Below, in pieces: positions 1,248 through 16,091 of a DNA stretch of 54,498 nucleotides (position 1 is the first letter of the stretch; every line of letters starts with the position of its first letter). Location of the stretch: positions 1-54,498 of the forward strand of contig JANQSY010000066.1 in the NCBI GenBank assembly GCA_028279065.1, given 5' to 3'. The notes below the pieces were generated by a model. It did no database searches, had not been told where the DNA came from, and saw only the letters and a program-made list of their open reading frames with translations. Origin of the DNA: Cytophagales bacterium (GTDB taxonomy: Bacteria; Bacteroidota; Bacteroidia; Cytophagales; CCMP332). A program made the translations under genes and the position numbers.

Positions 1248-1591
1248 ACTCGTGATGTGGATGTAATAGTTTTCAGTTTCCAAAAATTAACAAAAAAATG
1301 GGGTTTTTCCGCGCCCAATTTTGCTAAACAACCGCAAAAGACAGCATTAAATATCAAACTGTCCATAGCCAAGTGAAAAATCCCCTTTAATGGGGGAGCT
1401 CACGAAATATCAGATAGCAAAACAAATAAATAAATGGACCTTTTCCATTTAATAAATGTGAATATGTTACTTGAGTATTAAGATAACTAGATTTATCAAA
1501 GAAAGTATATAACATTATTGATTAGCCCATTTTGAATGTAAAATGTACCATTGCCTTTCCGGAAATTTGCAGGCTTGAAAAAGTAGGGGAT
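1248..1591. other. Intergenic region between divergent genes
   Basis: AT-rich spacer between the divergent surface-protein gene and rlmD. It should carry both promoters. On the minus strand a TTAATTTTTGG stretch about 35 bases upstream of the surface-protein start resembles a Bacteroidota -7 box with one extra T. No RNA gene or convincing repeat was seen. An in-frame TTG at 1532 would extend rlmD to the left, but the extension does not look like family sequence. Confidence 0.4.
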
Positions 1592-2983
1592 TTGAAGAAA
1601 ATCATAAAAGACCTCGAGATCCTTGATTATGCTACAGAGGGGAAGGCGATGGGAAAACTGGACGGGAAGGTCTATTTCAGCCCAAATACTGTTCCGGGCG
1701 ATATCGTGGATCTCCGGCTTGTCAAAAAAAGAAGTTCATTTTCTGAGGGAAGGGTTATTAAGTATCACCGGTTTTCAGAAAAGCGGATAGATCCTTTTTG
1801 CAAGCACTTTGAGCTCTGCGGAGGGTGTCAATGGCAATCAGTGTCATATAGTGAGCAGTTGGTGTTCAAGGAGAATCAGGTAGGAGAAACCCTCAGAAGG
1901 ATCGGGGGGCTTGAAAAGGTAAAGGTGGAGCCAATTGTCGGATCACCTTTGGACAAGGAGTACCGCAACAAAATGGAGTTCTCCTTCTCAAATTCCAGAT
2001 GGCTCACACAAGAGGAGATAGAGTCCGGAGAAAGGTTTGATAGAAATGCATTGGGTTTTCATATCCCCGGCCGATATGATAAGGTTCTGGACCTGAACGA
2101 ATGCCACCTTCAGGATCTCAATTCCAATAGGATCCGAAATCGCATTAGATCCTTTGCAAGGAATTCGGAGCTTCCCTTTTACGACATTCATAAACATGAA
2201 GGTTTCTGGAGGATCATGATGCTCCGTAACAATTCCCAGGGAGAATGGCTGCTGCATTTCCAATTCGGATATCAGGATGAAGGGACTATTTCGGATTTGG
2301 CAGAGCTGATCAAAACGGAATTCCCCGAGATCACTTCAGCGTGTTACTCCATCAATCAAAAGAAGAATGATTCGATCTATGATCTGGAGATCAAACCTTT
2401 GATAGGCGATCCATTCATTTTTGAGACTTTGGGCACCCTAAAGTTCAAGATCGGCCCCAAAGCCTTTTTCCAAACCAACCTTGAACAGACAAAGAACCTT
2501 TATCAAAAGGTGCTGGAGTATGCACAATTCAAAGGAGACGAATTGGTCTGGGATCTTTATTCCGGTGTAGGGTCCATATCGCTATCTGTAGCAGGATTGG
2601 TAAGAAAGGTGATAGGAATAGAAACCGTTGAAATGGCTGTAGAAAACGCAAGGGAAAATGCGGAGATAAACGGCATCACCAACGCAGAATTTATCTCCGG
2701 AGACGTAAAAGACCTTTTGGCAAATAGAGAGGGGATCTTAGAAGAGAATCCTTCGATCGTGATACTTGATCCCCCTAGGGAAGGACTTCATAAGGATGTC
2801 TGTCAGGCTTTGATCGATCTGAAGGTTGAGAAGATCATCTATGTCAGTTGTAAGGTATCCACTCAGGCCAGGGATATCAAACTGCTTTCGGAAAGCTATG
2901 AAGTACAAAGAATTCAACCCGTCGATATGTTTCCGCATACGCATCATGTGGAATGCGTGGTTTCGTTGGAGTTGAAAGGATAA
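1592..2983 (+). CDS. rlmD: 23S rRNA (uracil-C5)-methyltransferase, RlmD/RumA family
   Basis: Methylates a uracil of 23S rRNA with S-adenosylmethionine, acting in the cytoplasm. An N-terminal TRAM-like segment (TEGKAMGKLDGKVYF, VPGDIVD) precedes a Cys cluster at residues 70, 76 and 79 plus C171, the [4Fe-4S] ligands of the RumA type. The SAM-binding segment is VWDLYSGVGSISL, followed by ILDPPREGLH. The catalytic Cys is in YVSCK (about residue 420), and the C-terminal HHVE supplies the usual general-base Glu. The start is uncertain: TTG at 1592 matches where relatives begin (KKIIKDLEI), whereas the frame is open from TTG 1532. There is no in-frame ATG nearby. Length is normal. The last 14 codons lie in a repeat that recurs at 9281-9323, so the gene's 3' end appears to have served as an insertion site. 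RlmD is preferred over RlmCD or TrmA because of the Fe-S cysteines. Confidence 0.9.
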   Translation: MKKIIKDLEILDYATEGKAMGKLDGKVYFSPNTVPGDIVDLRLVKKRSSFSEGRVIKYHRFSEKRIDPFCKHFELCGGCQWQSVSYSEQLVFKENQVGETLRRIGGLEKVKVEPIVGSPLDKEYRNKMEFSFSNSRWLTQEEIESGERFDRNALGFHIPGRYDKVLDLNECHLQDLNSNRIRNRIRSFARNSELPFYDIHKHEGFWRIMMLRNNSQGEWLLHFQFGYQDEGTISDLAELIKTEFPEITSACYSINQKKNDSIYDLEIKPLIGDPFIFETLGTLKFKIGPKAFFQTNLEQTKNLYQKVLEYAQFKGDELVWDLYSGVGSISLSVAGLVRKVIGIETVEMAVENARENAEINGITNAEFISGDVKDLLANREGILEENPSIVILDPPREGLHKDVCQALIDLKVEKIIYVSCKVSTQARDIKLLSESYEVQRIQPVDMFPHTHHVECVVSLELKG

Positions 2984-2986
2984 ATT
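2942..2986 (+). repeat. Left direct repeat: 3' end of rlmD (att-like)
   Basis: The segment from 2943 to 2967 is identical over 25 bases to 9281-9305, and similarity continues with scattered mismatches through the stop codon. It contains the last codons of rlmD. The second copy lies beyond the FlhA-like/TPR module, so the pair brackets about 6.3 kb. I interpret it as the left boundary of an island integrated at the rlmD 3' end. Confidence 0.75.
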
Positions 2987-3085: not shown

Positions 3086-4465
3086 CTAATAGTCCAACTC
3101 ATCAATAATTCCAACAACGTTTATTTTGACATTATCAGGTATATCCCTTTCGCTGAAAACACGTATACCAGGAAGATCTGCTTGAAGTAACTCGATTAAG
3201 GTCTTTTGTGCTCCAATAGTCGTCAGTACTCCCTTCGTACTAATTGATGTTGCAAAATTCTGATATGCTTGATGGAATGACTCCAATAGTCTGGCTTTTT
3301 CTAGATGCTTTAAGGAAACCTCAGCAATATATTTTTCCACTGATGGAGATAATTTAACAAGCTTAATGCTTTGGTTGATAAGATACGGCTCAATAAAGTA
3401 ATAGTTGAGCTTATACTTTACATGATTGACTAGATCTATTATAGTGGGTTTCCTATTCGCCTTTGAAACTACCATTTCCGAAATTCCATAAGGCACAATT
3501 AGTTCCTCTTCCTCAGAATATTCCACCTTCATATTGACTTCAAGTAAATCTCCAATTATTCCCCTCAAATCTCGTATAGATAGACGTTCTTGTAATAACC
3601 TTCTGAGAATCTTAACCAGCTGTTCGGACCCTATCGTTTCAGTTGCATTGAATACGACCATGGGGAAAGCTTCATCTAATCTTCCTAAGACTTCATCCAT
3701 GCTATTTAGGTGAAAATAAGCCCCAAGGTTATTCATCACATTGTTTTTAGCTTCATCAAGTGATCGACAGTAGTTTAGGTTGATATCATTTAGTGTAGTG
3801 ATGAGACCTTTGGAAATCGATTCATCCACAACAAGGTCAACACCTTTTATGGTAAATCCGGAATCAAAGAAAACAGATTCTTTAAAGTTTTCAACTTGGA
3901 AATCGTCAATGGTTGTGCAGTTGGCAGGGGTTCTGAATAACATTCTCTCCTTTGAATAGGATGAAACGAGTATCTCAATTTGGTATTCAATCCAGCTCCT
4001 ATCTGCTCTGAGTTCATGGAGTTGAACAAAATCCTTTAGTGGTCTGTCGAAATTAATACCGTGATGCAGGAATGACCGGAAGAATTCCATTGAAACTTCA
4101 ATTGGAATACTGGTTTTCTTGACGAATGCTCGTACTACTTCGTTCGCTATCTCATTATTAATAATATATGTTCTGTTGGCTATTATAGCGTTATATATTC
4201 CGTGAACCAGTGAGATATCATCTTTTTTTGGGGTATCATCGAGGTAAATATTAGCAGGAAGGACTGTGTTATGAATGGAAACTGCTAGTGGAGAGTCAAG
4301 TACAAATTCGATCTCGTAAGTGAGGAGATAGTTAGGTATTCCAACGCACTCAGCAAAATGGGTGAGTAGCTCTCCAAGTTGGTGCTGAATATTGAATAGA
4401 TCATCAGAAGTTTCCGCTTGCAGAGAAGCCCTAGGAATATGAATGGAAATGACTGGATTACTCAC
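3086..4465 (-). CDS. FlhA/FHIPEP cytosolic-domain-like protein, soluble
   Basis: A 459-residue protein with no signal or membrane segment. It matches, by eye, the cytoplasmic domain of the FlhA/EscV (FHIPEP) export-gate family. A D1-like start lies at residues 4-75 (ISIHIPRAS, then VGIPNYLLTYEIEFV). A second segment is near 200-220 (DSGFTIKGVDLVVDESI). The signature LLQERLSIRDLRGIIGDLLE is near 288-308, and the C-terminal LPGIRVFSERDIPDNVKI (about 430-450) parallels the FlhA ...LPVLSxNEIPPxVKI segment. The export-channel transmembrane half is absent. The start is GTG at 4465, overlapping the TGA of the upstream TPR gene (GTGA), so translation is probably coupled. In FlhA and its relatives this domain forms nonameric rings and docks chaperone-cargo complexes. 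Whether that holds here is inference. No other flagellar or type III gene is visible. Confidence 0.75.
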   Translation of the reverse strand: MSNPVISIHIPRASLQAETSDDLFNIQHQLGELLTHFAECVGIPNYLLTYEIEFVLDSPLAVSIHNTVLPANIYLDDTPKKDDISLVHGIYNAIIANRTYIINNEIANEVVRAFVKKTSIPIEVSMEFFRSFLHHGINFDRPLKDFVQLHELRADRSWIEYQIEILVSSYSKERMLFRTPANCTTIDDFQVENFKESVFFDSGFTIKGVDLVVDESISKGLITTLNDINLNYCRSLDEAKNNVMNNLGAYFHLNSMDEVLGRLDEAFPMVVFNATETIGSEQLVKILRRLLQERLSIRDLRGIIGDLLEVNMKVEYSEEEELIVPYGISEMVVSKANRKPTIIDLVNHVKYKLNYYFIEPYLINQSIKLVKLSPSVEKYIAEVSLKHLEKARLLESFHQAYQNFATSISTKGVLTTIGAQKTLIELLQADLPGIRVFSERDIPDNVKINVVGIIDELDY

Positions 4466-7400
4466 TCTGACTTTTTAGTTGGGTGAATGATTGAGTGCCC
4501 CACCGGGGCAGATTCTAATACTTCTCCACGCGCTAATACGGGTATGCTCATGTCCGATATCGCTATGACTTTCTTCATTAAGGGGCGTAGAGCAACATCT
4601 TTAACTACAAGGCCAAACTTGTGTTCCTTGGATTTCTTGATGGCTTGCAGGTTGGTAGCAATAGTTTCTTTCAGTGCTTTCGTTAGGATCAATACATCAA
4701 TGCCGTTTCGCTTTTCCATCGCCTTTTTGAACTGGTCTTCTATAGTTTTATCCAATAAATACAACTTGTAAGAATCATTATTTCCCTCCAACTGTGGTCG
4801 AATCGTTGGGTTCATCCGAATCCTTGCTATAACCTCCGGTATGGATAATTGGGGATAATACCCTTTGTAGAAGTGATATATCAATACAAAATCATTGATA
4901 GGAGTTCTTTCCTCCACCAATCCCCGCACAAGGTTAGTAAAGGGTCCGATATGCTCATAAGTTTCAACTCCAGGGATGTCATTTTTATATTCGAGAATAT
5001 GTTCTTCGAGCAGGTTCTGGACTTCTTGTACCCGAACCATCTCAGCCAGCCAAAATGTAAGCTGCCGTTTAAAGCGGTCAAATACTCGGGTGACAATGGA
5101 CTTCTGCTGTTCAATTGATTTATTCTGCATTACTTCCAATTCCCCTTCCGCAACCAGGGTTTCCATAATCAGAATTTTATATCGACTATTCTTTTGTCTA
5201 GAAGCTCTAAGCCTTACACCAGGCACTTTCACACCATATCTGGACATGAATTCGGACCTCATTTCGGGAAGCCAGGTGCTTAAGAAATAGTCATTCAAGT
5301 CATATTCGTCAACAATATCATCTCCAAACTCTATAGCTATGGGGGTAGTGACGTTGATACCTATTGCTTCGCCCTGATCATCAGTCTGTGCTTTCTCCAC
5401 TGAATAATCAATGAGTGATCTAGTAGCGTATGTATAGGATCGCCTTTCATTAGTATCTTTTGCTTCATCTTGTTTCATTTCAAAACAATATCTGAACTGC
5501 AACCTGGTGAACTTTTCCTTTTTGGAATAACCTAAATAATCTTCAGCGTAGCTACTTTTCCCTAAGTCTTCAGCCTTAAGTGAGTACAGGTCATTAATTC
5601 CAGCTGCAATGGTACCTTTCATTAACTGAAGTGCCGCTATTCTAATTCTCACTTTTGATTCACCTGTCAATCCCAACTGCTTGATAATTTTCAAGCATTT
5701 CCTATAGTAGGTCAAGGCCTCGCCATGTGAATCAGTATATCTTTTAATAGCCTCTTTTTCGAGCCAGTTCTCCTCTTTTTTATCAAAGAAATCCGGTCTT
5801 TCGATCATATTAAATCGAGTATCTGCATACTTCATGTAATCGTTAAAATACCACCTATGAATCTCAGCAGGTTCCGGGTTTCGGTTTAGGTTCTTCTCAA
5901 GCAGTTCGATTCTTTGATCAAGATTAAATGCAGCATCCTGATTACCTATCCATGTTGCCGCCCACCAGGCAAAATCATGATGCAGCCAATTTCCAATTAT
6001 ACTCTTAAGACTATCTTGTATTTTACTAATTTTTGCAGGTTCCGAAGTATATTCAAGTTGGAGTCTTAAAAGTTCAAATGAGTTCCAATAGAATTTTTGC
6101 CTAATAATTTTAAGGTTACTATCAATTTCTCTCCTTTCTTCTGATTTGTAATATTTGGTTCGCTTTCTTCGGATCTTGTTCCATACAAAAAAAACTAATG
6201 CTTGATTGGGGTTGAATTCCTTTTCCCAAAGTCCTATGCTTTCTATTTTGCTGGCAGACAGAAAGCGAAAGAGTCGTTGTGTAACTCCATATCCTTCTTC
6301 CTCTATCTTTAACCATTCATGAGGTAAATACTCTTTAATCTTTGCCGCGAAATTTTTAATGTCGTCTTCAAAGTTCTTTTCAATGTTAGCATCTCTTTCT
6401 TTTTCAAGCTTTTTGAGACTTTTTTCCAATCGGATCTTTTGCTCGTTCTCTAAGACAGTAAGTTGCTTTCCCTTTTTATTACCGTTCTTTTTTAATACAG
6501 AACTCTCAAAGTCTTTACTCAAAATATCGCCAGCATCAAATCCTGTGTAGGCTGTTCGAGGTTGCTCTTCCTGCTTTCCAATTCTATTGATTTCCTCTTT
6601 CAAATCCTCGATCTTCTTTGTTTCCTTTTTGGTGGATTCTTCAAAATCTGTTAGCAGCTTGTCACCGGTTAGTTTGTAAAGCTCTACTTTAGCATCAAAC
6701 CAGTTTGGCTCAATACGAAGACACTCATTTTCAAGAATGCGAATTCGTTCTTCATTGTTGTCTTCAAGTAATGACAAGTAATAAAAAGGCTCAGCATAAT
6801 TGCCATTGAGCTCTATACTTTCTCTGTAAGCCCTTTTAGCTTCAATCTGATAATCTTTTACCCCAGTTCTGTTATAAAGGTGATGAAAGGCCTCACCATA
6901 CTCTTTTAAAACGAATGATGATACGATTGAGATTGCTTCTTTAGAATTTTTGGTGCTTTCCTTCCTTTTGGAAAGAGCATTTTTTTTATATCGTTTAAAG
7001 CGATCTATTAAATCACGACCGATGAATTCGAAGTAGTACGGTGCGTAGCTAATGGAATGAGACATTTGGTGTATTCGTCTTCCATCTTCCGCTTTGACGA
7101 AACAATGATACGCTTTTTCAAACTCACCATTTTCGGCATAAATTCGAATAAGACCATTTTGGATATCCGTCAAGTCAATTTCCGGAATTACGTCCTTAAA
7201 TTTTTCAGCTTTTTCAAAGAATTTTTTGGCAATATGATTGATGCCCCTGCTCTTGATATCCAGAAGCCAATATATGTAACCAATGTTCGCTAGTGCTGCA
7301 ATGTTGGCGGGGTTAATATCTAGGCATTTTTGGTACAATTTGATCACCATTAATGCTTCTTCCACATTCGATAGTGGATTTTGGCCTTGCCTCCAAGAAT

Positions 7401-8871
7401 ATTCTCTCTCTATCGCCTTTCTAAAGATGCCTGCTTCAAATCTGGGTTCTAATTCAAATAACTGTCCTAACGGGTCGGCGATCTTCGATTCATTGGTGAG
7501 AGAATTTCCGAATAGAAACAATAAATCATTGGCGGACTCAATTGGTCGCAGGCGTTCGGCTTCGTACAATTCCGACTCTGCTAGTTTTGAATCCCCAAAG
7601 CATCCAGCAATTAATGCATTGGTACAGTGCATCTTAAATAAAACTTTCCTCTTCGCTTCAGTACGAAATAATAAGGTTGATAGGGCTGTCTGAGCCTCTT
7701 CTGCATGTCTTGGAGTGGGATAAATATTTACGTTTTTTCTCCCATGAATCGCCGCCAAATTGTATTGAAATAGTATCATATTTGAATAGCCAATATGTGC
7801 ATTTGCCAGCGTAAGATACCTGTTGGTGATTTTACTCGAAATAATCGAAAGAGGCTTCTTGAGCGATCGTTTAACATATTGAGTGGCGTGGAGGCAATAA
7901 TTTGCTACCCAATTCAATTTGGAATATTTAATATCCTTCCAGAAAGGGTTGAACGGATCTAACTCTTTGATGGCCTTTAAATAAAGCTCTCCTGCTTTTT
8001 CGTAGGAAGCGAACGTATTGGATTTTGCATAATCTTTGGCTTCATAATAATAGGCCAAGCCTTTAAGGTACCTGGTGCCCAAATAGCTTATTTTGCTCTC
8101 TACATCCTTTCGTATTTGATTATAGATTTCTGTGGCTACGCTGTAGTAAATCTGCTCCAGCAGTCGCTTGTATTTTTCTACTTCTTGGTTACTGATCTCT
8201 TGCTCTAGGATATCCAGGTTGTAATAAATGGTTAAAGCCAAACGAGATGGTTGTTTTAAGCCGCCAAGCTTAATTTTGGGCATCACGATTATTTCATAAT
8301 TTTCCATTTGATCTCTGACTTCCCTGGGCCGGATGATGTATTCTCCTCCAATGTGTATATGAGATCTGTTAGGAAGACCTTCCAACTTTTTCTCTACCTC
8401 TGAGTTTTCCGATTCATAGTTTTCATCCACGAAATAGAGTCGCTGGATGCGCTCATTCAAAAGTCTAGCTATATCCTTAGGTACCCATTCCATGAATTTT
8501 TTATAAAGCGGTGAGATATCTGCAGAATCACTTACAGGTGAAAATTCACCAATGGAACAGGTATATCGAAAGGGTTTTTTCGATTCCTTAATCCAAAACT
8601 TGAACCAACCCCATGATAGGAAAGAAAGGACGGTAACCAGCAGTAAGCTAATAGAAATCCATAATTCTGGCGTAAGCGTCTTAAAATCAAATGATTTGAT
8701 TGCACACCACCAATCGGAATCAAGGGTGTAGACCACCACTTGTATTGCAGAGACAACTAATCCGACATAGAAGCCAAGACTACCAATCCTTTTTCGCTGT
8801 TGGAGACCCTTTTCAACGTTTTCGACTTTTTCGAGGATATCAGAAGGCGGCAATAAATTAGATACTCTCAC
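4462..8871 (-). CDS. Giant membrane-anchored TPR protein with C-terminal FlhA/FHIPEP-like domain
   Basis: 1469 residues from a GTG start, with no good ribosome-binding site. The layout as seen is: two N-terminal hydrophobic helices (about 31-50 and 70-91), anchoring it in the inner membrane; a long helical TPR-like region with recognisable repeats near 295 (YLKAIKELDPFNP), 514-538 (CLDINPANIAALANIGYIY), 683-703 and 1050; and highly charged coiled-coil stretches near 735-760 and 810-850. The last 300 residues resemble FlhA's cytosolic domain: TTPIAIEFGDDI near 1172, GVKVPGVRLR near 1215, LVEERTPINDF near 1322 and MSIPVLARGEV near 1443. No ATPase, nuclease or protease motif was found. It is the first gene of a two-gene unit with the soluble FlhA-C-like partner. 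I infer a scaffold or ring-forming complex at the membrane, possibly a host-defence or stress module. The function is unproven. Confidence 0.72.
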   Translation of the reverse strand: MRVSNLLPPSDILEKVENVEKGLQQRKRIGSLGFYVGLVVSAIQVVVYTLDSDWWCAIKSFDFKTLTPELWISISLLLVTVLSFLSWGWFKFWIKESKKPFRYTCSIGEFSPVSDSADISPLYKKFMEWVPKDIARLLNERIQRLYFVDENYESENSEVEKKLEGLPNRSHIHIGGEYIIRPREVRDQMENYEIIVMPKIKLGGLKQPSRLALTIYYNLDILEQEISNQEVEKYKRLLEQIYYSVATEIYNQIRKDVESKISYLGTRYLKGLAYYYEAKDYAKSNTFASYEKAGELYLKAIKELDPFNPFWKDIKYSKLNWVANYCLHATQYVKRSLKKPLSIISSKITNRYLTLANAHIGYSNMILFQYNLAAIHGRKNVNIYPTPRHAEEAQTALSTLLFRTEAKRKVLFKMHCTNALIAGCFGDSKLAESELYEAERLRPIESANDLLFLFGNSLTNESKIADPLGQLFELEPRFEAGIFRKAIEREYSWRQGQNPLSNVEEALMVIKLYQKCLDINPANIAALANIGYIYWLLDIKSRGINHIAKKFFEKAEKFKDVIPEIDLTDIQNGLIRIYAENGEFEKAYHCFVKAEDGRRIHQMSHSISYAPYYFEFIGRDLIDRFKRYKKNALSKRKESTKNSKEAISIVSSFVLKEYGEAFHHLYNRTGVKDYQIEAKRAYRESIELNGNYAEPFYYLSLLEDNNEERIRILENECLRIEPNWFDAKVELYKLTGDKLLTDFEESTKKETKKIEDLKEEINRIGKQEEQPRTAYTGFDAGDILSKDFESSVLKKNGNKKGKQLTVLENEQKIRLEKSLKKLEKERDANIEKNFEDDIKNFAAKIKEYLPHEWLKIEEEGYGVTQRLFRFLSASKIESIGLWEKEFNPNQALVFFVWNKIRRKRTKYYKSEERREIDSNLKIIRQKFYWNSFELLRLQLEYTSEPAKISKIQDSLKSIIGNWLHHDFAWWAATWIGNQDAAFNLDQRIELLEKNLNRNPEPAEIHRWYFNDYMKYADTRFNMIERPDFFDKKEENWLEKEAIKRYTDSHGEALTYYRKCLKIIKQLGLTGESKVRIRIAALQLMKGTIAAGINDLYSLKAEDLGKSSYAEDYLGYSKKEKFTRLQFRYCFEMKQDEAKDTNERRSYTYATRSLIDYSVEKAQTDDQGEAIGINVTTPIAIEFGDDIVDEYDLNDYFLSTWLPEMRSEFMSRYGVKVPGVRLRASRQKNSRYKILIMETLVAEGELEVMQNKSIEQQKSIVTRVFDRFKRQLTFWLAEMVRVQEVQNLLEEHILEYKNDIPGVETYEHIGPFTNLVRGLVEERTPINDFVLIYHFYKGYYPQLSIPEVIARIRMNPTIRPQLEGNNDSYKLYLLDKTIEDQFKKAMEKRNGIDVLILTKALKETIATNLQAIKKSKEHKFGLVVKDVALRPLMKKVIAISDMSIPVLARGEVLESAPVGHSIIHPTKKSE

Positions 8872-8966: not shown

Positions 8967-9280
8967 TTTAGTTAGAGGCATGTTCATTTAAATATATACC
9001 AATAAAACAAGCAAGAATGAATTGGATAACCGCTTTAATCTCATCCTCTATTGAAAACCCTATTTATAGATTGTATTTCATTCCCAATATCATGGAGATT
9101 TCCCGACATTTTCCCTGGTTTTTCAAAAGATGAGAAGGATTTCCCATCTTTTTCCTATTTCTGATGAGAAAAAGCTGAGAAACGAACATGCTCTTGTCTA
9201 GGTCTTGTCCGAGCATATTCTCATATCATCAAAAACACTCTTTAAACTCAAAGGAGGCTGATTTTCAGCACAACAAACAT

Positions 9281-9323
9281 ATCATGTGGAATGCGTGGTT
9301 TCGTTAGGGTTGAGAGACTAAAA
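9281..9323 (+). repeat. Right direct repeat: displaced, diverged 3' end of rlmD
   Basis: 25 bases (9281-9305) are identical to the rlmD terminus at 2943-2967. The frame then continues with conservative changes to a stop in the same register: this copy reads HVECVVSLGLRD-stop, versus HVECVVSLELKG-stop in rlmD. It has no upstream rlmD sequence, so it is a 3' fragment. Such a duplicate is expected when an element integrates into a gene's 3' end and supplies a replacement end. Confidence 0.75.
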
Positions 9324-9422
9324 TCTCCAGAAAAAATTCGAAAGTAGGGCAGTGGGCTTATTCATGATGAGCAACAGCAGATAACGATGCTGAGATAATA
9401 TCTTCAAATCTTAAATTTGGTC

Positions 9423-11898: not shown

Positions 11899-11939
11899 AA
11901 ATACTATCTAAATTAGTATTTACTAAATTAATTAGTATT
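11899..11939. promoter_or_regulatory. Operator-like repeat cluster over the dinB start
   Basis: AAATACTA (11899-11906) and TAGTATTT (11914-11921) are perfect inverted arms with a 7-bp spacer. TAGTA-TT-TACTA follows at 11914-11925, and a third TTAGTATT half-site (11932-11939) touches the TTG start. The arrangement is what a dimeric repressor of an inducible mutagenesis cassette would bind. No LexA/S24-type regulator gene is present beside it. Confidence 0.5.
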
Positions 11940-13146
11940 GAATTCGATTTTACACCTGGATTTGGATACGTTCTTCGTATCTGTTGAGCGACGTAAAAAT
12001 CCTAAGCTACACCGTAAACCCGTCCTCATCGGAGGTGTCAGCGATCGTGGAGTGGTAGCCTCATGCAGCTATGAAGCCCGCCAATTCGGGATTCACTCTG
12101 CCATGCCCATCAAAATGGCCAAAGCGCTTTGCCCTGAAGCCATCATCATGAGAGGTAATTCAGCGGACTATTCCAAAGCTTCAAAGGAAGTGACAGAAAT
12201 TATTCAAGAATCTGTTCCAGTACTGGAAAAAACATCTATCGATGAGTTCTATGCTGACCTTACAGGACTGGACAAGTTTTTCGGATGCTTCAAAATGGCT
12301 ACTGAACTACGCAGTAAAGTCATTCATGAAACAGGGCTGCCCATTTCGTTTGGCTTATCAGAAAACAAAACCGTATCCAAGATCGCTACGGGTGAGGCTA
12401 AGCCCAATAACCAACTATTGATCGATTACGGAAAGGAAAAAACTTTTCTTGCCCCGTTATCCGTCAAGAAGATCCCTATGGTAGGCGGCAAAACCCATCA
12501 AAAGTTGGTCAGCCTTGGTGTACGTAAGATCCAAACTATTCAGGAAATGCCCATCGATTTGATGGAAAGGGCATTTGGGAAAAATGGCGTAGTGATTTGG
12601 AAAAAAGCCAATGGTATTGACCATTCTATGGTGGTTCCGCATACGGAAAGAAAATCCATTTCCACCGAGCGAACATTCGACAGAGATACCACCGATATCG
12701 ATAAGCTAAAGGGCCTGCTCATCGCTATGACGGAAAACCTGGCCTTCCAGTTAAGAAGAGGGAGAAAACTGTGTGCTTGTGTTACTGTCAAGATCCGCTA
12801 TTCAGACTTTAATACCTACACACTGCAACACAAAATACCTTATACATCAGCAGATTATACTTTGCTCCCAAAGGCATTGGAGCTTTTCGACAAATTATAC
12901 GATAAGCGCTTGCTTATACGGCTGATCGGTGTTCGTCTCAGTGATATCCTGGATGGGCGCTATCAAATGGATCTGTTTAATAGTCAGTTAGAACTGCTTA
13001 ACCTTTACGATGCCATGGATCATATTCGTGATAAGTATGGCGATCGCTCCGTAATGCTGGCAGCCGGCATGGGTGCGAAGACCATTTCCCGTTGGAATCC
13101 CTTCACCGGAGAACCTCCGCCACTATTGGCTAATCGAAGACAGTAA
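11938..13146 (+). CDS. dinB: Y-family DNA polymerase IV (DinB)
   Basis: Error-prone translesion polymerase, 402 residues. The catalytic carboxylates are in LHLDLDTFFVSVE (start) and SIDEFYADLTGLD (about residues 100-112). GLSENKTVSKIATGEAKPN precedes the HhH/thumb, and KSISTERTF begins the little-finger domain. The start is TTG at 11938: relatives begin with a short SILHLDLDT sequence and no ATG is available upstream. The stop TAA overlaps the next gene's ATG by one base (TAATG), so the two polymerases should be made together. It has the dyad operator at its 5' edge. In Bacteroidota such genes often follow an S24/LexA-like regulator gene, which is missing here. Confidence 0.92.
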   Translation: MNSILHLDLDTFFVSVERRKNPKLHRKPVLIGGVSDRGVVASCSYEARQFGIHSAMPIKMAKALCPEAIIMRGNSADYSKASKEVTEIIQESVPVLEKTSIDEFYADLTGLDKFFGCFKMATELRSKVIHETGLPISFGLSENKTVSKIATGEAKPNNQLLIDYGKEKTFLAPLSVKKIPMVGGKTHQKLVSLGVRKIQTIQEMPIDLMERAFGKNGVVIWKKANGIDHSMVVPHTERKSISTERTFDRDTTDIDKLKGLLIAMTENLAFQLRRGRKLCACVTVKIRYSDFNTYTLQHKIPYTSADYTLLPKALELFDKLYDKRLLIRLIGVRLSDILDGRYQMDLFNSQLELLNLYDAMDHIRDKYGDRSVMLAAGMGAKTISRWNPFTGEPPPLLANRRQ

Positions 13147-16091
13147 TGCTCAATACCCATTCCTATTTCAGCTTTAAGTATGGAATATTATCGATCAAAG
13201 AATTGGTTGAATGGGGTCAAAAGCATCATTTCAAAACCCTGGCACTCACTGATATCAACAGTACTGCTGGCTGTCTGGAGTTTATCCGAACGGCCAAGAA
13301 TGCAGGCATAAAGCCTATCATAGGTATCGACTTCAGAAATGGGGCAAAGCAGCAGTTCATAGGTATTGCCCGAAACAATGAAGGGTTTTACCAACTCAAT
13401 AGCTACTTATCAAAATATCTGCATACCCAGACTCCCATACCTGCAGATATCAATGAGGTGTCGGATTGCTTCATCCTTTTTCCCATCGATAACGTCCCCA
13501 AAAGGCCGCTGAAGGATTATGAGTACATCGCTATCAAGCCATATGAGACCAAGAGATGGGTTTTAAAGTCACTTCCCCAAGATAGAATCATTGCCTGCCC
13601 GGTTTTCACCCTACCAACACAAGAAAACTATGAACTCCACTGTGTACTCAGAGCCATTGAGCTCAACACATTGGCAAGCAAGCTGGAGCCCTCGGATACC
13701 GGAAAACAGGAGGATATTTTTCTGAACAAGCAAGAGTTGATCAACGCTTATCGGGCGCTTCCCTCAGCGCTGGAGAATCTAAAACATCTGATAAAGAGCT
13801 GTCATATCGATTTTCAGTTTGCCCCAAAAGCTCAGTCACAAAACCTCCGTAGTTGGACCAATTCCCTGAAAAGTGACTACCAAAAGGTCCGCCAACTCTG
13901 CTTAGAAGGACTGGCCTATCGTTATGGAAAGAACCCCTCATTCAAAATCCGTAGACGGATCGTAACTGAATTGAATACCATCCAAAAAATGGGATTTATG
14001 TCCTATTTTTTGATCAGCTGGGATTTGGTAAAATATGCGCGCAGCAAAGGCTACTACTATGTAGGCAGGGGAAGTGGGGCAAACAGCATCATTGCCTATT
14101 TACTAAGGATTACGGATGTAGATCCGATTGAACTGGATCTTTATTTCGAGCGATTTATCAACCTTTTCCGAAGGAATCCGCCCGATTTCGATATTGATTT
14201 TTCATCTTCGGATAGAGACGATGTGACCCGATACTTATTCGAAAAGTATGAACACACAGCCTTACTGGCTACATACAGTACATTCCAGGCCAGGTCGATC
14301 ATCAGAGAAGTCGGAAAAGTGTTTGGCATACCTCCTCATGAGATCGAAAAATTGCAAAGAAACACGGGCAGAAATCCGGAAGACCGTCAGTTTGATCACC
14401 ATGCCCGGGTTATTTTGAACTACGGCTTAGAGCTCCAAAATTTTCCCAGCCATTTAAGTATTCACGCAGGGGGTGTTCTCATATCCGACAAGCCCATTCA
14501 TTATTTTACGGCTACCTCCTTACCCCCAAAGGGCTATCCCATTACACACTTTGACATGCATACCGCCGAGGATATCGGGCTATATAAGTTCGACATACTG
14601 GGCCAGCGGGGTTTGGGAAAGATCAAAGACGCTCTGGCCATTATCAGACAAAACAAGCCTGACACTCCCAGCATCGATATTCACAATGCCAAGCCATTTT
14701 TTGAAGACCCTCTGATCCAGAATAATTTGCAAAAAGCAAAGGCCATCGGTTGTTTTTATGTGGAGTCGCCTGCGATGCGAATGTTGTTAACAAAACTCAG
14801 AGCCAGGGAGTATCTGACGCTGGTGGCCGCCAGCTCTGTCATTCGACCGGGTGTAGCCCAATCCGGCATGATGAGACAATACATATTGAGGTATCGTGTT
14901 CCGGAGAAACGAAAAGAGGCCCATCCCACTTTGTTGGAAATCATGCCTGATACTTATGGTGTCATGGTCTACCAGGAAGATGTGATCAAAGTGGCTCATT
15001 ACTTTGCTGGGTTGACATTGGCGGAATCCGACGTGCTGAGAAGGGGTATGTCCGGAAAATACAGGTCCCGGGAAGAGTTTTCGAAAGTGAAAACCAAATT
15101 TTTCAGGAACTGCGAGCAAAAAGGATACCCGCTTCACCTGAGTTCAGATGTCTGGCGTCAGATTGAAAGTTTTGCCGGCTACGCTTTTGCCAAGGGACAT
15201 TCAGCCTCATATGCCATCGAAAGCTACCAAAGCTTATTCCTTAAATCCCACTACCCACTGGAATTCATGGTGGCAGTGATCAACAACGGTGGTGGTTTCT
15301 ATAGCAGAGAATTCTACATCCATGAAGCCAGAATGCACGGCGCGATCATAGAGCCACCCTGCATCAATAAAAGTCAGAAGCGTACCATCATCCAGGGCAA
15401 AGTGATCTATCTCGGATTGGATCTAATCAAAGACCTGGAAAGTCTTGTTATCATGGAAACCATTGCAGAACGGGATAAAGATGGCCCCTTTTGCTCTTTG
15501 GACCAATACGTCAAAAGAGTAAGTATATCTCTTGAGCAATTGTCACAATTGATTAGAATTGATGCTTTTCGCTTTACAGGTGAAAGCAAAAAGAACCTGC
15601 TTTGGAGAGCTCATTTTCTGCTGGGCAATAACGGTAAGAGCAGCACAAAACCAGTCCTTTTTGATCCTCAGGTCAAGAATTATTCCTTGCCAGCCGTTGA
15701 GCATGATAAGATCGAAGATATTTATGATCAAATGGAACTGCTGGGTTTTCCTTTGATCAGCCCGTTTCAATTGCTCAGCACCTCCCCTGACAATTCCATT
15801 AAAGCACAAGAGTTTCCAAACTACCTTAACAAAAGAGTCAGGACGATCGGATATCTTATTACTACTAAAAGAACAACTACAACACAAAAGCAAGACATGC
15901 ATTTCGGCAACTTCCTGGACGAAGAGGGAGAATTTATAGATACCGTCCATTTTCCTCCCGTGTCAAAAAAGTATCCGTTTCGTGGTAGGGGAATTTACCA
16001 GCTGGAGGGAAAGGTCGTTGAAGAATTCGATGCGATTAGTATAGAAGTTGATTATATGAAGCGCCTGGATTACAGATCGATTGAAGTGTAA
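13146..16091 (+). CDS. Short DNA polymerase III alpha subunit (DnaE-like, probably error-prone)
   Basis: 981 residues, shorter than replicative DnaE (over 1100). An N-terminal PHP domain (THSYFSFKYGILS, ALTDINSTAG) leads to the C-family palm: RGSGANSIIAYLLRITDVDP, then PDFDIDFSSSDRDD (about 344-357) with the catalytic aspartates. Later come TYSTFQARS, HAGGVLIS, YQEDVIKVA and AFAKGHSASYA. A C-terminal OB-like segment (RTIGYLITTKRTTT) is present, but an extended tau-binding tail is not evident. Being co-translated with dinB, it is most likely the partner in damage-induced mutagenesis, comparable in role to DnaE2/ImuC, rather than the replicase. No imuA/imuB-like gene is adjacent. Confidence 0.88.
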   Translation: MLNTHSYFSFKYGILSIKELVEWGQKHHFKTLALTDINSTAGCLEFIRTAKNAGIKPIIGIDFRNGAKQQFIGIARNNEGFYQLNSYLSKYLHTQTPIPADINEVSDCFILFPIDNVPKRPLKDYEYIAIKPYETKRWVLKSLPQDRIIACPVFTLPTQENYELHCVLRAIELNTLASKLEPSDTGKQEDIFLNKQELINAYRALPSALENLKHLIKSCHIDFQFAPKAQSQNLRSWTNSLKSDYQKVRQLCLEGLAYRYGKNPSFKIRRRIVTELNTIQKMGFMSYFLISWDLVKYARSKGYYYVGRGSGANSIIAYLLRITDVDPIELDLYFERFINLFRRNPPDFDIDFSSSDRDDVTRYLFEKYEHTALLATYSTFQARSIIREVGKVFGIPPHEIEKLQRNTGRNPEDRQFDHHARVILNYGLELQNFPSHLSIHAGGVLISDKPIHYFTATSLPPKGYPITHFDMHTAEDIGLYKFDILGQRGLGKIKDALAIIRQNKPDTPSIDIHNAKPFFEDPLIQNNLQKAKAIGCFYVESPAMRMLLTKLRAREYLTLVAASSVIRPGVAQSGMMRQYILRYRVPEKRKEAHPTLLEIMPDTYGVMVYQEDVIKVAHYFAGLTLAESDVLRRGMSGKYRSREEFSKVKTKFFRNCEQKGYPLHLSSDVWRQIESFAGYAFAKGHSASYAIESYQSLFLKSHYPLEFMVAVINNGGGFYSREFYIHEARMHGAIIEPPCINKSQKRTIIQGKVIYLGLDLIKDLESLVIMETIAERDKDGPFCSLDQYVKRVSISLEQLSQLIRIDAFRFTGESKKNLLWRAHFLLGNNGKSSTKPVLFDPQVKNYSLPAVEHDKIEDIYDQMELLGFPLISPFQLLSTSPDNSIKAQEFPNYLNKRVRTIGYLITTKRTTTTQKQDMHFGNFLDEEGEFIDTVHFPPVSKKYPFRGRGIYQLEGKVVEEFDAISIEVDYMKRLDYRSIEV

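Follow-up and report, generated by a model that had tools for sequence, protein, structure and literature searches.

Two adjacent genes of a Cytophagales bacterium encode proteins with the FlhA/SctV cytosolic domain, known from the export gate of type III systems, and they do so in a genome that lacks such a system. The genes lie on the minus strand of the window (the whole stretch of 54,498 nucleotides that was analyzed), overlap by 4 nt in long, intact frames, and form a coupled module (Table 1). The original prediction had described two overlapping open reading frames of 1469 and 459 residues, and both are present as it said. It missed the loss of the SD2 subdomain from the large protein, and it missed the setting of the genes in an insertion at the 3' end of rlmD. 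We propose, with a little less than even confidence, that the pair is an rlmD-insertion module that works as a membrane-tethered scaffold with gate-less FlhA-C domains.

Table 1. Features of the gene pair and of the rlmD insertion, in window coordinates
Feature	Positions	Strand	Remarks
rlmD-type 23S rRNA uracil methyltransferase gene, insertion target	1532-2983	+	
rlmD-side copy of 49-nt repeat, end of rlmD reading frame	2936-2984	+	
459-aa protein	3086-4465	-	SD3-SD4 at about residues 243-454, no domain assigned to the N-terminal half; ORF list, Pfam, hhalign
1469-aa protein	4462-8871	-	FlhA-C domain at C terminus, preceded by N-terminal membrane hairpin and long helical part (TPR weak)
SD3-SD4 stretch, 1469-aa protein	4513-5076	-	PF00771 positions 460-654
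SD1-like stretch, 1469-aa protein	5101-5397	-	PF00771 positions 321-414
Predicted membrane hairpin, 1469-aa protein	8593-8787	-	about residues 29-50 and 69-93; hydropathy only
Conserved distal end of insertion, about 225 nt	9097-9327	-	common to rlmD insertions in G255, G131, and G240
Distal copy of 49-nt repeat	9274-9322	+	41/49 identical

That the shared domain is the cytosolic part of FlhA/SctV, the export gate protein of type III systems, is well supported. Against the Pfam FHIPEP model (PF00771; cut-off, 29.1 bits), the 1469-aa protein scored 65.1 bits (E = 6.1e-18), with its best stretch at residues 1265 to 1453 on profile positions 459 to 654 and an extra, SD1-like stretch in the same frame, and the 459-aa protein scored 45.3 bits (E = 6.2e-12) at residues 243 to 446 on profile positions 465 to 656. 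The NCBIfam models of FlhA and SctV (TIGR01398 and TIGR01399) also matched, at about E = 1e-12 to 1e-13. Their scores of 46 to 51 bits were far below the equivalog cut-offs of 692 to 772, as expected because the membrane half is missing. The PDB entry closest in sequence to the 459-aa protein was 6wa6 (E = 7e-5), a cytosolic domain of the SctV type, and hhalign matched residues 246 to 454 (98%; E = 1.4e-13) to a profile built from the domain of the large protein together with type III homologues. Moreover, the ERxxIxD motif of FlhA/SctV is kept. Thus, the FlhA/FHIPEP-like identity first proposed holds for both proteins, as PF00771 exceeds its cut-off in each and the matches, at E of 6e-18 and 6e-12, are significant.

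What the two proteins retain of the export gate is limited. In both proteins, all matches lie at profile position 321 or above, and the N-terminal multi-pass export-gate domain, which PF00771 covers to about position 310, is absent. The matches cover cytosolic positions only, and the earlier claim that both proteins lack the export-channel half is thereby upheld. Neither protein has all four of the subdomains SD1 to SD4. In the 1469-aa protein, SD1 is followed directly by SD3-SD4, and the stretch of approximately 45 profile positions occupied by SD2 in FlhA/SctV is missing; in the 459-aa protein, only SD3-SD4 is significant. We note that an SD1 at the start of the 459-aa protein (first 85 residues) was suggested by eye and by the predicted strand-helix-strand order, and this candidate was rejected for want of a profile match. 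SD2 contributes to the export-chaperone site of FlhA/SctV, and the domain as a whole receives cargo in type III systems. With SD2 lost, binding of type III-like cargo or export chaperones by the large protein is therefore unlikely. The loss has a parallel, as a Myxococcales SctV-like protein (L056, 1006-2040) that keeps its membrane half has a similarly shortened SD2 region.

Predicted structures lead to the same family. Foldseek matched the AF2 models of the large and the small protein to FlhA-C/SctV-C with a best E of 3.6e-12 and 1.6e-8, respectively, and VIA compared the large-protein model with 3mix at a Z of 12.2 over 263 residues (rmsd, 17.1 Å). Mean pLDDT was 65.5 for residues 1137 to 1469 of the 1469-aa protein and 58.2 for the 459-aa protein, such that AF2 confidence was low to middling, and full-length superpositions had an rmsd of about 17 Å. 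Because type III homologues were already present in the alignments given to AF2, the agreement in fold is not separate evidence from the sequence matches.

That the genome has no type III system is also well supported. The source genome is 97% complete, and searches of it found no other FHIPEP protein, no FliP (SctR), and no FlhB (SctU), with positive controls each time. Among the annotated genes of the window, no flagellar or injectisome genes and no type III pseudogenes were seen. What the original prediction had said of a missing type III system is thus true of the whole genome with respect to FliP, FlhB, and a second FHIPEP. Moreover, the association with flagellar or type III genes that it had named as contrary evidence is not seen at this locus.

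The pair appears to be rare among the genomes sampled. Ordinarily, FlhA-C/SctV-C belongs to a single machine, the export gate of type III systems. Protein searches found no related proteins in 291 genomes of the order or in the 59 nearest relatives, and PF00771 searches of 395 genomes sampled from the class and 345 from the phylum found no orphan FHIPEP besides the pair, these four samples overlapping in part. In the phylum sample (n = 345), full-length FlhA was present in 75 genomes, none of them that of the window. We note a partial FHIPEP match in a genome of the same class (G298; L005, C38:88573-89307), which covers profile positions 257 to 502 only (E = 4e-71) within a 925-aa open frame. 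In a wider contig scan, 22 of the 22 loci examined among the matches listed encoded full-length type III gate proteins; two of the scan alignments (A2 and A4) included made-up variants or fragments, which served solely to shape the search pattern. Matches on plasmid replicons of Sinorhizobium and Ciceribacter were considered as orphan FHIPEP proteins and rejected as true SctV. Scans of viral contigs for the domain of the pair gave nothing, and no paper on orphan FHIPEP proteins or stand-alone FlhA-C domains was found in the open-access literature. Relatives of the pair may exist unnoticed in UniProt.

How the pair came to lie beside rlmD is suggested by the ends of the islet. Two copies of a 49-nt repeat of the rlmD end flank the genes and are 84% identical, and no other site in the window exceeds 29/49. 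Both copies read as the RlmD C terminus ending in a stop codon, and rlmD is intact. The 6289 nt between them, a 6.3-kb islet, are filled by the 1469-aa and 459-aa genes as sole cargo. There is no further open reading frame of more than 50 aa in the islet outside the two genes, and therefore no integrase is encoded there. The inner flank on the rlmD side has no conserved sequence beyond the core. The islet end had no match in Rfam, and the folding of the distal end was not significantly special (z-scores, -0.95 to -1.6). Downstream of the islet (11938-16091), a DNA polymerase IV-type gene is followed directly by a DnaE-type polymerase gene. In another genome of the same family (G009), rlmD is followed directly by other genes with no repeat and no insertion; the stretch from rlmD to an AIRS-type gene in G009 is without the DNA polymerase IV-type and DnaE-type genes.

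The distal end recurs at rlmD in other genomes with other cargo. In G255, which belongs to another family of the order, the approximately 225-nt sequence lies beside rlmD in three tandem full copies with different genes between them. The units of G255 (L083, 3780-8620; L122, 3220-17644) are about 1.2 to 2.1 kb long with one main gene each, and partial copies lie further out; the arrangement is cassette-like, with no recombinase visible. When 291 genomes were searched with a model of the end (R1), G131 (137.8 bits) and G240 (48 bits), which belong to the genus of G255, matched strongly, and G255 itself matched in part. All other matches were weak, several of them lying on rlmD ends. Cargo at rlmD in the three genomes includes a PD40 protein, a LuxR-type regulator, a protease, RND efflux genes, and glycan-type genes. 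No integrase was seen in these stretches when the first residues of each open reading frame were read and nine Pfam scans were made. In G131 and G240, the gene adjoining the distal sequence points toward it, and the sequence is therefore not simply a promoter. No distal site was found in viral contigs, plasmids, or phages. In an alignment of the core, the left half CAAACAAACA occurs in most distal copies and differs from rlmD, and the rlmD-side copy of the window has the right half TTGGAGTTGA, which is present in other distal copies. Recombination within the core would be expected to produce such a pattern of halves. We infer that the pair was horizontally acquired and that the insertion is, or was, mobile.

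The islet partly resembles known elements. The 3' end of rumA/rlmD is the target of streptococcal integrative and conjugative elements, such as ICESag37 (PMC5633684), and the islet shares with ICESag37 the same target gene end and direct repeats at its ends. ICESag37, however, is conjugative and has a serine integrase and 20-bp att sites (PMC5633684), whereas the islet lacks an integrase, carries only two cargo genes, and has a conserved distal end of approximately 225 nt. The rlmD insertions are like integrase-less islands and gene cassettes in being small units of few genes at a shared site, in tandem in G255, but no recombinase is known for them and the distal end showed no special single-strand folding. 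Of the features that mark a site-specific island, the islet has the flanking repeat of the target end, and an uninterrupted site and other cargo are both found in other genomes; the islet has no integrase gene.

The 1469-aa protein would place the FlhA-C domain at the membrane. Hydropathy shows two hydrophobic segments, starting near residues 29 and 66, in agreement with the two N-terminal membrane helices originally described. Lysine and arginine residues number 6 before, 2 between, and 4 after the segments, which suggests an N-in/C-in topology with the bulk of the protein predicted to be cytosolic. The TPR repeats described for the same protein were recovered as a weak Pfam match, and the best E of 0.003 fell short of the cut-off. 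We note that approximately residues 95 to 300 (7970-8590, minus strand), before the TPRs, look TolB-N/CsgG-like by eye, and no profile supported the likeness. Unlike FlhA/SctV, then, the pair has neither the membrane part of the export gate nor a type III locus; in the large protein, SD2 is missing and the domain is joined to an N-terminal hairpin and an extended helical region, and the second copy of the domain is soluble.

How the two proteins might work together is drawn from the family. FlhA-C/SctV-C forms a nonameric ring, in which SctV-C subunits pack side by side, and two FlhA-C domains encoded in one operon, one of them on a membrane-anchored protein, seem to be explained most simply by a scaffold or ring. 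The N-terminal hairpin would hold the 1469-aa protein at the inner membrane, and nearly all of the protein would therefore be in the cytosol. The 459-aa protein would supply a second, soluble SD3-SD4, and the FlhA-C domains of both proteins could pack side by side, like SctV-C subunits in the ring. The long helical part might recruit a client or partner. The topology, the hetero-assembly, and the client binding are, like the mobility of the insertion, each what we infer. Against a scaffold speak the low-to-middling AF2 confidence, the loss of SD2, and the finding of no homologous pair in the other genomes searched.

Alternatively, the pair could be an anti-phage or stress system, in which the large protein senses a membrane event and the FlhA-C assembly gates an effector. 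Its sporadic presence, its compact two-gene operon on an insertion, and its combination of a membrane anchor with a large scaffold would fit such a system, but a Pfam scan found no enzymatic or toxic domain in either protein and no defense family model was matched, PADLOC giving only Csx20 at an E of 0.015. Moreover, the efflux, regulatory, protease, and glycan-type genes carried by other insertions at rlmD are not defense-like. The defense or stress role offered originally is thus unsupported by the PADLOC result and by the ordinary cargo at the same site elsewhere, and we consider a defense role possible but unlikely. Doubt of another kind concerns the insertion itself, as the rlmD repeat might be a local duplication instead of an integration footprint and the genes might be old residents. 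In favor of this, the islet is without an integrase and the mobility of the insertion is putative. Against it, the distal copy sits within approximately 225 nt of non-rlmD sequence that is found again beside rlmD, with different cargo, in another family, and the insertion is absent from G009, a genome of the same family as that of the window. We regard a local duplication as quite improbable.

A role in the export or assembly of envelope proteins by another route, such as the type IX system, with FlhA-C as a receiver of cargo or chaperones, is less probable still. Receipt of cargo is what the domain does in type III systems, and Por-type C-terminal secretion signals in window proteins indicate a type IX system, but SD2 is missing from the large protein, the islet is without secretion genes, and such rarity fits poorly with a core secretion role. 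Finally, that the genes are the decayed remnant of a type III system is highly improbable: the FHIPEP homology is real, but both frames are long and intact, the genome has no other type III component, no pseudogenes were seen nearby, and the domain occurs twice, joined to parts unrelated to it.

Returning to the membrane-tethered scaffold, we speculate more broadly that FlhA-C was recruited outside type III as a two-protein, membrane-tethered ring, and that the ring has spread as cargo of an undescribed kind of integrase-less rlmD insertion in Bacteroidota whose 225-nt end is recognized by a recombinase acting in trans. As a whole, this wider proposal is a speculative one, and we think it somewhat unlikely to be right in every part. 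If it is true, the FlhA-C ring would be a module usable outside export, and the pair would be a simple system for testing the ring by itself. The FlhA-C domain family is already known, and the observation of a mobile element at rlmD may be new in itself. Ultimately, the rlmD insertions, which have an end in common but differ in cargo, suggest that Bacteroidota harbor a family of mobile elements that is yet to be charted.
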